A stretch of 40,780 nt of DNA, from contig DATIGQ010000208.1 of assembly GCA_035454605.1 (NCBI GenBank), forward strand, positions 1 to 40,780. The letters are read 5' to 3'. The position numbers and the translations under genes were made by a program. The stretch's first letter is position 1, and each line of letters begins with the position of its first letter. Source of the stretch: Terriglobales bacterium (GTDB taxonomy: Bacteria; Acidobacteriota; Terriglobia; Terriglobales; Acidobacteriaceae). Of this stretch, positions 5,797-9,718 are shown piece after piece. Below the pieces are notes generated by a model. It saw nothing but the letters and a program-made list of their open reading frames with translations. It was not told the DNA's origin and made no database searches.

Positions 5797-6492
5797 TCAG
5801 CCGATACCCAGATAGGTATCGATCCACTGGCGGACAGCTATCCGGCGTTCATCGCCGGGTTCGAAGCGCAGGCCAATGACGTCCGGATCGCGCCGCCACA
5901 CCACCGTGGCTCCCAGCTTCAGCGGCTTTTCGCCCGGCAGTGTGAAGCCCACCTCCACGTTTTCCCCCAGCGCCATCTTCTCCGGGCAGCGCAGCGACAT
6001 CCCTCCGGCGCTCACTTCCAGGGTGGAGGCGGTGAACTTGCGCCCGGCGCGCTCGATGGCCAGCTCGGTGAATACGGGCACGCGCACGTAGATGCGCAGC
6101 TCGTTGATCACCAGCAGATGCGTGGCGCGCACCACCTTGAGCGCGGATTGCCGGTCCACCGGCTCCTGCAGCATGGCATTGACGCCGTACTTGGAGTAGC
6201 GGATGGCTTCTTCCGGGCCGCGGCTGATGCCGTACACCACGATCCGCCGGTTCGAAGGCGAGCCCCGTGCCGCCTGCAGAATGGCCTCCGCCTCCTCGTT
6301 CAGCCGCAGCACGCAAGCCTCGAACTTCTGCTTATGAAGACGCTCGACCGCGTCGCCCACCACGGCTTCCGTGCGGATGCCAAACTGACGGAAGCAGTCG
6401 CGCAACACACCCGCCGTGGGCTCGTCCAGGGAGAACAGCGCGACGGTCGCGGACTTGCGTTCGTCCGGCGCTGTCTTCGGGGTCGTACTCAT
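5797..6492 (-). CDS. PilZ-domain protein with a degenerate receiver-like N-terminus
   Basis: The protein is 231 aa. Residues about 15-128 resemble a receiver fold (VALFSLDEPTAGVLRDCF at the start, YGVNAMLQEPVD near the end) but lack the usual acidic phospho-acceptor cluster. Residues about 132-228 form a PilZ domain, the cyclic di-GMP-binding module. R133xxxR137 is present, and the second motif reads EVSAGG (159-164), so the usual D/N of the D/NxSxxG signature is a glutamate; binding may be retained but weakened. The likely role is a cyclic di-GMP effector. A diguanylate cyclase is encoded 2 kb away on the same strand. The gene is divergent from the triple phosphatase-like membrane protein. 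Confidence 0.8.
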   Translation of the reverse strand: MSTTPKTAPDERKSATVALFSLDEPTAGVLRDCFRQFGIRTEAVVGDAVERLHKQKFEACVLRLNEEAEAILQAARGSPSNRRIVVYGISRGPEEAIRYSKYGVNAMLQEPVDRQSALKVVRATHLLVINELRIYVRVPVFTELAIERAGRKFTASTLEVSAGGMSLRCPEKMALGENVEVGFTLPGEKPLKLGATVVWRRDPDVIGLRFEPGDERRIAVRQWIDTYLGIG

Positions 6493-6595
6493 GTTGTCGG
6501 CTCTTTCCCTGGGGAAGGGGGAACGGCATTGTTTCGCGTCTCCAGGGACTTTGGCAACTGGTTTCCTGCTGCCTCCGGGGGGCGCATGGCTTCAA

Positions 6596-6625
6596 TTGGC
6601 GTCTCCAGGCCGCCACTTCTAGTAT
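6596..6625 (+). promoter_or_regulatory. Possible promoter of the phosphatase-like membrane protein
   Basis: TTGGCG (6596-6601) and TAGTAT (6620-6625) are separated by 18 nt in the 184-bp divergent gap between the PilZ gene and the 6677 gene. The match is partial, so this is a weak call. Confidence 0.3.
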
Positions 6626-6676
6626 CATGAGGGCCTGATTTGACCGGCGACCCTCCCTCGCGCCGGCTTGAGAAGC

Positions 6677-8170
6677 ATGGCACAGCCTGGCACTGAGTCC
6701 ACCTCCCGCGCCCGACCAAGCGGCCCCACCATCGGCCGCTGGCGCAAATGGCTGATGGCCTTCCTGTTTCTCGCCTGCTTCGGGTTTGCAGGCGGGGCCG
6801 CTTTTCTGCTGTTCGCTCTGGTGCCCCTGGATCATGCTTTGGAGACCCGCGGCTGGGGCCAGGCCGGCATCGACCGGCTGGTGGGATTGCTGGTCTGGGC
6901 CTGGGGTTTGATCGCGCTGGCGGTCACCGCGCTCTACTACCGCCTTACGCTCAGCCGGACCTATCGTCGGCGGCCGGCCCTCGGCCTGCTCCTCTTCATG
7001 ATGGTCGCTGCCGGTGCCACCTTCGCCCTGTTCCTCGACACCGGCATGGGCATCATCGCCGCCCGTCGCTCCCGCGTCGAGCAGCTCTCCCGCAACCTCA
7101 CCTTCGGACCTTACCCGGACCTGGAGGACCTGAAGAGCCTCAAGTTCCAGCAGTACGACGGCGTCATCACGCTGCTGCACCCCGCACTGCCATTTGAGAA
7201 GGTGCTCCTGGACCGCGAAACGCAGGCCGCCGCGGAGGCCGGTATCCCGGTGTACTCCTTCCCCATGCTGCCCTGGATCTCGGAGAACCGGGAGGCGCTC
7301 GAAGCGGTTCAACGGCTGCTGGGCGACGGCAGCAAACGCTACTACGTGCACTGCTACCTGGGCCAGCATCGCGCCAACCTGGTCCGTCAGATGGCCACGC
7401 ATGGCCTGGGGCTGGCGCAAGAATCCGTCGACGAACTGCTGCCGGACAGACTGGAGCGTGGCACGCTGTTCACTTATGAGCAGAAACGCATCGTGCTCGG
7501 ACCGCTTCCCGTCGACCAGGAATGGTTCACCGCGGTCTTGCGCCACGGCGTACGCGAAGTGATCTCTACGCTCGATCCCGCGGACCCCGACAACCAGCCC
7601 TGGATCGAGCAGATCGACAAGGTGGCCGCCGACTACAACCTGAAAATCACCTCCAAGCCGATCGATACGCATGCGCCCGACCCGCTGGCCATCCGCGACC
7701 TGGCCCAGTACGCGCGCAATGCCACCGAGCGCGTCTACATCCTGGGTTACCGCACCGGCCGCTGGGTCTGGCCCCTGGATGCCGCCCTGGGCAGCGGCCA
7801 GTTCACTCCCGTGCCTATCGCGCGAGAGTCCTTCGAGCGCGGACCCCTTTTTAAGTTCAACAAGAAGTACGTGCTCGGACCCTACCCGACCGACGACGAG
7901 ATCGGGACCCTGAAGTTGGCGGGCATCCGCGAAGTCGTCTCTCTAATGGACGGCAGCAAACCCGACAATCAACGCTGGATCCAGCGCGAGCAGCAGTGGA
8001 CCGCCGTCTATGGCTTCCAGTTCACCCACCTCTCCATTCCGTCATCGGGCGACGCCAGCAGCCAGGTCAGCCAGGCCACCGACTACATCCGCGGCCGCCC
8101 CGGCCCGCTCTACATCCACAGCTTCCGCACCGACGAACGCGTGCAGGCCGTGGCCAACCGGCTGCGCTGA
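6677..8170 (+). CDS. Membrane protein with three tandem dual-specificity-phosphatase-like repeats
   Basis: The protein is 497 aa. Three N-terminal membrane segments (about 26-50, 66-90, 100-128) are followed by three repeats, each opening with a GPYP-like turn: LTFGPYPD (141-148), RIVLGPLPVD (271-280) and YVLGPYPTDD (398-407). Repeat 1 contains VHCYLGQHR, an intact HCX5R phosphatase loop (H225, C226, R232). Repeat 2 has ILGYRTGR at the same place (Cys to Leu, Arg362 kept). Repeat 3 has IHSFRTDER (H481, S482, R488), an exact Cys-to-Ser change. Repeat 1 could be a protein or lipid phosphatase; repeats 2 and 3 look like binding or scaffold copies. The ATG at 6677 is preferred to the TTG at 6668. 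No named family is certain; a membrane-anchored tyrosine/dual-specificity-like phosphatase is the closest description. Confidence 0.7.
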   Translation: MAQPGTESTSRARPSGPTIGRWRKWLMAFLFLACFGFAGGAAFLLFALVPLDHALETRGWGQAGIDRLVGLLVWAWGLIALAVTALYYRLTLSRTYRRRPALGLLLFMMVAAGATFALFLDTGMGIIAARRSRVEQLSRNLTFGPYPDLEDLKSLKFQQYDGVITLLHPALPFEKVLLDRETQAAAEAGIPVYSFPMLPWISENREALEAVQRLLGDGSKRYYVHCYLGQHRANLVRQMATHGLGLAQESVDELLPDRLERGTLFTYEQKRIVLGPLPVDQEWFTAVLRHGVREVISTLDPADPDNQPWIEQIDKVAADYNLKITSKPIDTHAPDPLAIRDLAQYARNATERVYILGYRTGRWVWPLDAALGSGQFTPVPIARESFERGPLFKFNKKYVLGPYPTDDEIGTLKLAGIREVVSLMDGSKPDNQRWIQREQQWTAVYGFQFTHLSIPSSGDASSQVSQATDYIRGRPGPLYIHSFRTDERVQAVANRLR

Positions 8171-8236: not shown

Positions 8237-9718
8237 CTACCCTTTGCGCACGCCCACGGCGGCCATCACGCGGTTGCGGCCGGCCTGCTTGGCGGCGTAG
8301 AGGGCTTCGTCGGCGGCGCGCACCAGTTCGTCGCGCGTAGTGCCGTTCTCGGGATAGTCGGCCACGCCGGCGCTGATGGTCACTGGTCGCGGCACGCCGG
8401 GGAAGGGCCAGGACTCGACCACGCGGCGCAGCTTCTCGGCCACGCCCATGGCGTTCTCGCCGGTGGTCTCCGGCACCAGGATGGCGAACTCCTCGCCGCC
8501 GTAGCGGCACACCACGTCGGCCTTGCGCAGTTGCTGGGTGAAGATGGCGGACATCTGGCGCAGCACTTCGTCGCCCAGCAGGTGGCCGAACTCGTCGTTC
8601 AGTTTCTTGAAGTGGTCGATATCCACCATGATCACGGCCATCTGCCCGGTGTAGCGGCTGGCGCGCTCCATCTCCTCCACCACGCGCATCTCGAAGTAGC
8701 GCCGGTTGTAGATGGAGGTCAGGCCGTCGAGGTACGCCATCTGCTTCACGCGGTCGAAAAAGCGCGCGTTCTGGATGGCGCCGGCGCAGATGTCGGCCAT
8801 GGACTCCAGCGCCTGCACGTCGGCGGGCTGGAAGGCGTTCTCGGTCGCGTTCTCCAGCGCCAGCACGCCCAGAGTCTGCCCGAAGGAGATCAGCGGCAGG
8901 CACAGCTCGGAGCGGGTCTCGTCGTATCCGGTCACGTAGCCTTCGACCTTGCTCACGTCGTTTTCCACCACCGGGCGACCGCTGGCCAGCGCCCGCCCGC
9001 AGAGGCCGGCGCCCGACGGCAGCCGACCACCAATGCGCATGCGCGGTGTTAACCGGCCCTGCTGCGCCTGGATCACCAGGTCGCCTTCTTCCTCGCGCAG
9101 AAGCACCGCCACCTCGTCTACCGGGAAGGAAGACAGGATCATGGAACAGACCTTGTCCAGCAACTGGCTCAGGTCCAGCATGCCGGTGGTTTCGCGGGCG
9201 ATAGTGTTGATGGCTTCCAGCTGCGTGGAACGCCGGCGCTCCAGCGAATACAGCCGCGCGTTCTCCAGCGCGATAGAGGCCTGGGTGGAGAAGAGCGCGA
9301 GCAGGTCCACCGTCTCCTGGCTGAAGAAGTCCAGTTGGTCGCTCTGGCAGTCCAGGACGCCCACCACGTCGTCGCGCACCATCAGCGGAATCGCCACCTC
9401 GGAGCGCGTGGATTCCATCGCTCTCACATAGCGCGGATCCTTGGAGACGTCGGGGGCATAGATGGGGCGCTTGATCTGGGCCGCCGTTCCGATCAGTCCT
9501 TTGCCCACCGGTATGCGGCTGCCTTCGCTGCCGGCGGCGCGCCCGAAGTGCGCGCGCACGTAAAGTTCATTGTTCGCAGTGTCCAGCAGAAAAATGGTGG
9601 CGTTCTGGAACTGGAAGTAGTCCCGCAGGATGGAAAGGATCCGGTTCAGCACTTCGTCCAGCTCGAAGGTCGAGAGGACGGCCTGGCTGGCGTCGTACAG
9701 GATGGCGATCTTCTGCAT
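8237..9718 (-). CDS. Diguanylate cyclase with two GAF domains
   Basis: The protein is 493 aa. It has GAF domain 1 (about 18-155), GAF domain 2 (about 180-318) and a GGDEF domain (about 328-490). The active-site loop is GGEEF (407-411), and RKAD (398-401) lies five residues before it, the usual position of the RxxD product-inhibition site. The enzyme should therefore make cyclic di-GMP from two GTP and be feedback-controlled. It has no membrane segment, so the GAF domains probably sense a cytoplasmic small molecule or redox signal. The ATG at 9718 is chosen because the protein begins there with the helix leading into GAF1; the frame stays open upstream through moeA only as an antisense shadow. 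It is divergent from moeA across 90 bp. A TAGAAT box sits only 11 nt before the start codon. Confidence 0.93.
   Translation of the reverse strand: MQKIAILYDASQAVLSTFELDEVLNRILSILRDYFQFQNATIFLLDTANNELYVRAHFGRAAGSEGSRIPVGKGLIGTAAQIKRPIYAPDVSKDPRYVRAMESTRSEVAIPLMVRDDVVGVLDCQSDQLDFFSQETVDLLALFSTQASIALENARLYSLERRRSTQLEAINTIARETTGMLDLSQLLDKVCSMILSSFPVDEVAVLLREEEGDLVIQAQQGRLTPRMRIGGRLPSGAGLCGRALASGRPVVENDVSKVEGYVTGYDETRSELCLPLISFGQTLGVLALENATENAFQPADVQALESMADICAGAIQNARFFDRVKQMAYLDGLTSIYNRRYFEMRVVEEMERASRYTGQMAVIMVDIDHFKKLNDEFGHLLGDEVLRQMSAIFTQQLRKADVVCRYGGEEFAILVPETTGENAMGVAEKLRRVVESWPFPGVPRPVTISAGVADYPENGTTRDELVRAADEALYAAKQAGRNRVMAAVGVRKG

Follow-up and report, generated by a model that had tools for sequence, protein, structure and literature searches.

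The gene at positions 6677..8170 (+) of the 40,780-nucleotide stretch of DNA analysed here (the window) is an open reading frame of 497 aa that encodes a membrane protein with three TM segments and three DSP-like repeats (R1 to R3). The protein is conserved across distant bacteria and usually occurs in the company of machinery for an extracellular polysaccharide; its probable function is therefore that of an accessory phosphatase which faces outward and serves this machinery. The reading preferred here, with a probability of about 0.55, is that the phosphatase works outside the cytoplasm as an accessory to an exopolysaccharide module, with R2 and R3 as putative docking domains.

The codon-position GC content of the gene (66/46/85%) and its gene-wide dN/dS of 0.13, calculated against the orthologue of a sister species, indicate a real coding gene under purifying selection. 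This orthologue is full-length and 87% identical, and relatives from a different genus within the family are 43-48% identical to the window protein. A long reverse ORF which overlaps the gene (6332-7672) is, judging by its position and composition, probably a by-product of high-GC sequence. Homologues of the protein span at least three phyla (20 R1 domains compared) and differ in the number of repeats. The Rubrobacter proteins end after R2, R3 is present in the window protein, in the sister species (L002) and in L003 of genome G060, and the Bacillota proteins carry extra repeat-like stretches at the C-terminus. A search of viral contigs and plasmids found no relative. Likewise, none of the Pfam and NCBIfam models matched the window protein at cutoff (with the whole protein, PTP-SAK and Tc-R-P of Pfam scored 14.3 and 12.2 bits against a gathering score of 27), and a PDB search with the single window sequence returned nothing relevant. 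The sub-cutoff Pfam matches of MFS_1 and DUF6057 fall in the TM region and were taken as chance hydrophobic matches.

Several of the related loci have features of their own. The DSP gene of G363 (L031/L035, G363:C2:950594-951822) is split over two frames, by either a mutation or a sequencing error. The protein of L014, on a contig labelled Lentisphaerae, is near-identical to one of Syntrophomonas with a different end, which may reflect a chimeric contig or a transfer. G060, of the same family as the window genome, has two paralogues, L003 and L006, and the latter runs off its contig. A genome of this family has a strong match to TIGR03436 (acidobact_VWFA, E 1.5e-68) at L016:16415-17506 (+), which points to Acidobacteriota as the probable source of the window.

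The membrane region comprises TM segment 1 (residues 31-49; 6767..6823, +), which holds the hydropathy maximum of 2.30 and corresponds to helix 21-57 in the model, and TM segments 2 (residues 68-86; 6878..6934, +) and 3 (residues 102-120; 6980..7036, +), both placed by hydropathy. The N-terminal flank of the first segment has a charge of +5/-1. The loop between TM2 and TM3 has +5/-0 and is therefore cytoplasmic by the positive-inside rule. The N-tail and this loop are positive in most of the family members, and the short single-TM members agree. By the same charge rule, residues 121-497, with all of the repeats, are likely to lie outside the cytoplasm. A first-pass annotation of this DNA had missed this likely orientation, and also the association with the GT2/HEAT module for exopolysaccharide described below.

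Each of the three repeats is ~110 aa in length. They lie at residues 131-250 (R1; 7067..7426, +), 262-376 (R2; 7460..7804, +) and 387-497 (R3; 7835..8167, +), with the GPYP/GPLP/GPYP turns of the first-pass annotation located at 144, 275 and 401. Their origin by internal duplication, as proposed there, is borne out by the comparison of the repeats. R2 and R3 align locally with a score of 137 (z 23.5, 1000 shuffles) and R1 and R3 with a score of 60 (z 8.4, 1000 shuffles). R1 and R2 are weakly similar as single sequences (46 vs 50 for the best shuffle), and match as profiles (hhalign P about 1e-14). In a repeat tree that sampled the phylum of the window genome, Bacillota and Actinomycetota, 16/16 R1 domains fall on one side of a branch with support of 100/100, and R2 and R3 on the other. 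This split across the phyla implies that the R1-R2 duplication is old rather than a recent event in the window gene, and the separation of R1 from R2 predates the acquisition of the gene by the sampled phyla. Both R2 and R3 are under purifying selection against the sister species, with dN/dS of 0.083 and 0.069, the value of R3 being the lowest among the segments.

Structure prediction gave models which match DSPs for R1 and R3, and not the unrelated fold that would have told against the first-pass annotation. AlphaFold2 with a nine-sequence alignment reached a pLDDT of about 83 in R1 and about 82 in R2, and stayed below 50 in R3. The best match of the R1 model by VIA-align is DUF442 3gxg (Z 12.9, rmsd 4.0, 134 aligned), followed closely by 3gxh_B (Z 12.8, rmsd 2.3, 113 aligned). 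DUSP26 is matched with Z 11.7, and about 50 DSP entries with Z 10-13, which places R1 in the DSP fold. R3 was folded alone because MAFFT had put the R2R3 rows of the shifted-register alignment in true register. With R1/R2 rows as its alignment it gave a pLDDT of 93.7, a pTM of 0.87 and a match to 3gxg (Z 12.7, rmsd 2.5, 107 aligned), a fold possibly guided by those rows. R1 and R3 are thus predicted to fold as DSPs, in the case of R3 with confidence, and for R2 the putative DSP fold rests on its profile homology to R1 and its R1-like order of strands and helices.

The three repeats differ sharply in their active-site loops. The catalytic loop of R1, HCYLGQHR (7349..7372, +), has H225, C226 and R232 as first reported, and its CX5R pattern with the preceding His, HC[YF]LGx[HD]R, is invariant in 20/20 R1 domains. 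The homologue comparison therefore upholds C226 as a conserved residue, and with it the earlier view that a single intact cysteine-phosphatase domain is followed by inactive copies in a protein anchored to the membrane. The putative general-acid position of R1, after PMLPW[IV][SG], is E or D in 15/17 domains and Q or G in the other two; its role comes from the alignment. The loop Arg is mostly followed by Ala or Val, and in two cases by Thr, rather than consistently by Ser/Thr. A Ser or Thr at this place is common in the DSP superfamily and is not strictly required, as PRL and LSF2 have Ala. Together, these two deviations weaken the case for catalysis by R1.

The corresponding loop of R2, LGYRTGRW (7742..7765, +), had been read as having Leu for Cys with the Arg kept. 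This register is off by one: in the repeat alignment L356 takes the His position, G357 the Cys position and W363 the Arg position, and R362 comes one residue early. The Cys position of R2 is Gly in the window protein, L002, L003, L006, L010, L012, L014 and L026, Asp in L007, L008 and L011, Asn in L009 and L013, and Ala in L027-L030, and neither Cys nor Ser was found there in any of the 17 homologues. The loop of R3, HSFRTDER (8117..8140, +), contains H481, S482 and R488 as claimed at first. Its Cys position is Ser in the window protein. A change of one base (AGC to GGC) makes it Gly in L002 of the sister species, and it is Thr in L003 of G060, which belongs to another genus; there the loop is HTFRSDN and the Arg position is lost too. 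Cys thus occurs at this position in 0/3. R2 and R3 are accordingly pseudophosphatase domains, of a DSP fold that lacks the catalytic Cys, with the fold of R2 assigned by homology. As no other segment has a dN/dS as low as that of R3 and S482 varies, R3 is presumably kept for its structure and not for the Ser.

The link to polysaccharide synthesis comes from the gene neighbourhood. The DSP gene is accompanied by genes for a GT2 and a HEAT-repeat membrane protein in Rubrobacter (L007, L051), in Bacillota (L049, L009, L013) and in other classes of the phylum of the window genome (L044-L048, L017). For example, the gene order in G106 is HEAT, GT2, TPR, DSP and TPR/large protein, where the start of the DSP gene overlaps the stop of the gene before it, and in L017 the DSP gene overlaps the TPR gene upstream of it. 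The best NCBIfam match of the partner GT2 is PgaC/IcaA, below the PgaC cutoff. TPR and/or beta-barrel proteins are often present in the DSP/GT2 clusters, where the partner beta-barrel is YaiO. In the window genome, and likewise in G001 and G060, the DSP gene is at a locus apart from the HEAT/GT2/TPR cluster. The GT2 of the window genome is split across contigs C164 and C51, and the association here is by co-occurrence only. Among 150 relatives, 36 have a GT2 profile match with E 1e-60 or better, and these include 5/5 genomes with a strong DSP match (hypergeometric 6e-4); at the same threshold, 63 of the 297 phylum members have the GT2, including 8/8 with a strong DSP match (hypergeometric 3e-6). 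Both values serve as guides, as related genomes are non-independent and some of the GT2 sequences are in both the profile and the count. By shared locus or by co-occurrence with the synthase, the DSP protein is thus associated with the GT2 exopolysaccharide module. Most of the GT2-bearing genomes are without the DSP protein, which is therefore optional. No GT2 match was found in G608, where the DSP match is weak, or in the MAG G633 (2.4 Mb, L012), where the DSP is present.

Other genes and fusions were observed at these loci. In the window, a PilZ-domain gene lies upstream and divergent (5797-6492, -) and a GAF-GAF-GGDEF gene downstream and convergent (8237-9700, -), both being c-di-GMP-type neighbours. 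An uncharacterised protein of about 360 aa adjoins the DSP gene in Bacillota operons (L049:3031-4122, -; L013:836-1912, +); against Pfam, the L013 copy gave nothing above cutoff and the L049 copy no match. In Rubrobacter marinus, HEAT and GT2 form a single frame of 935 aa (L051:9985-12789, -), and are separate genes in other Rubrobacter. In one subclade, a membrane domain is either fused to the C-terminus of the DSP, as in L026:1411-3693 (+), or encoded next to it as a stand-alone protein, as in L045:5166-5909 (-).

DSPs and pseudophosphatases are known kinds of domains, and it is their arrangement and context which appear to be new, as judged by Pfam/NCBIfam cutoffs. The best fold match of both R1 and R3 (Z 12.9 and 12.7) is the DUF442/Blh N-terminal phosphatase-like domain (3gxg/3gxh; NF040641). 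NF040641 matches 8/11 members weakly, the window protein with 17.8 bits against a curated cutoff of 625 bits, and the DUF442/Blh family as modelled lacks the TM region, the repeats and the GT2 link of the window protein. TpbA of P. aeruginosa is a periplasmic DSP which represses Pel exopolysaccharide via a GGDEF protein (PMC2691606). It matches the window protein in fold and, with the location that the charge rule predicts for the latter, would also resemble it as an extracytoplasmic DSP tied to exopolysaccharide control, but it differs in being a single soluble domain with a signal peptide, a CKHGNNRT loop and no pseudophosphatase repeats, and it is not encoded with a synthase. The PFA-DSPs (Siw14, AtPFA-DSP1) share the fold and the GKHR end of the P-loop with many members (HCxRGKHR vs HCYLGKHR). 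However, they are cytosolic eukaryotic enzymes, and Pfam Y_phosphatase2 matches only at E 0.032, in 3/18 members. Pseudophosphatases of the STYX type (2r0b in the fold list) have a DSP fold in which another residue takes the place of the catalytic Cys, but are separate eukaryotic proteins, whereas the window protein has its dead domains in cis with a live one. The PgaC/IcaA-type GT2 systems (pga, bcs) are similar in the partner GT2, which is nearest to PgaC/IcaA, and in export by TPR and beta-barrel proteins, but have neither a HEAT-repeat membrane partner nor a DSP protein. The xag/Zetaproteobacteria stalk cluster was considered as a relative of the GT2 module and rejected: Sfz2 there is a T2SS-E-like/GT2 fusion, the arrangement is another one and no phosphatase is mentioned.

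Phosphotyrosine protein, lipid or polyprenyl phosphate and phosphoglycan are all candidate substrates, and the corresponding explanations are compatible with an accessory role, not exclusive of it. A periplasmic signalling protein-tyrosine phosphatase like TpbA, which would dephosphorylate the outer part of a membrane regulator and lower polymer synthesis, is possible, though less likely than not. The TpbA structures 4r0s/4r0t are among the matches of the R1 and R3 models, the window gene is flanked by the PilZ and GGDEF genes, a Sporosarcina operon includes a response-regulator gene, and there is the precedent of periplasmic TpbA repressing Pel through a GGDEF protein (PMC2691606). Nevertheless, the match to TpbA is one of fold only, neither a tyrosine kinase nor a phosphorylated partner was identified, and for the GAF-GGDEF protein encoded next door no periplasmic part is predicted, as far as tested. 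A phosphoglycan phosphatase acting on a putatively phosphorylated exported polymer, similar to plant LSF2/SEX4 or laforin, would fit a genomic link that is to polysaccharide. In the PDB, the R1 profile matches LSF2 best (4kyq, E 0.002), and LSF2/SEX4/laforin are among the fold matches. This explanation is unlikely, given that LSF2 is matched weakly and no better than many other DSPs, and that the DSP protein is without a carbohydrate-binding module.

The DSP might instead serve the module by dephosphorylating a lipid phosphate or polyprenyl phosphate, as the counterpart of a membrane kinase, which we consider doubtful though worth some weight. The C-terminal membrane domain fused to the DSP in L026 presumably resembles dolichol/phytol kinases by motif, its stand-alone homologue comes after the DSP gene in L045, L046 and L048 (59% identity), and in L047 the DSP gene is directly followed by one for a lipid kinase of the YegS type (DAGK_cat E 2e-22). 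Yet the kinase-like protein had no match in Pfam, NCBIfam or plasmids, and it is absent from the window genome and most of the others tested. The first-pass annotation had taken R3 for a natural C-to-S substrate trap which binds the substrate of R1. The 'exact Cys-to-Ser copy' is literally present in the window protein, an HSX5R with both His and Arg, but it is not conserved, as one base change makes it Gly in the sister species and G060 has Thr with the Arg position lost. R1 and R3 also fall in deeply separated tree groups, and R2 has Gly, Asp, Asn or Ala where the Cys would be. Free variation at S482 was what the annotation itself had named as counting against it, so that its Cys-to-Ser part is refuted, a trap is highly improbable and the label of 'sensor' is left without support.

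As an accessory phosphatase, the protein would be held in the inner membrane by its three TM helices, presenting one putatively live DSP (R1) and two pseudophosphatases on the outer face. The partner machinery would be a synthase-dependent exopolysaccharide module, made of the HEAT-repeat membrane protein, the PgaC-like GT2 and TPR/beta-barrel export. R1 may perform Cys-phosphate chemistry on an extracytoplasmic phosphoryl group, with R2 and R3 providing docking surfaces that position it on its partner, and the most likely role would be to take a phosphate off one of the module's components or products, by which polymer output is tuned. A bolder view is that of an undescribed and widespread class, in which an outward-facing live DSP with variable dead copies that grip the substrate or partner acts as a regulatory subunit of the HEAT/GT2 synthase, some of them fused to a membrane lipid kinase, or encoded next to one, which generates the phosphate to be removed. 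It is speculative and on balance improbable.

There are few known cases of exopolysaccharide synthesis being controlled by a phosphatase from outside the membrane, TpbA being one. If the accessory role is true, the family would offer a case, from prokaryotes, of a single chain that combines live and dead DSP domains. It would also tie a DSP with cis pseudophosphatases to a synthase module across several phyla, and such control would become testable.
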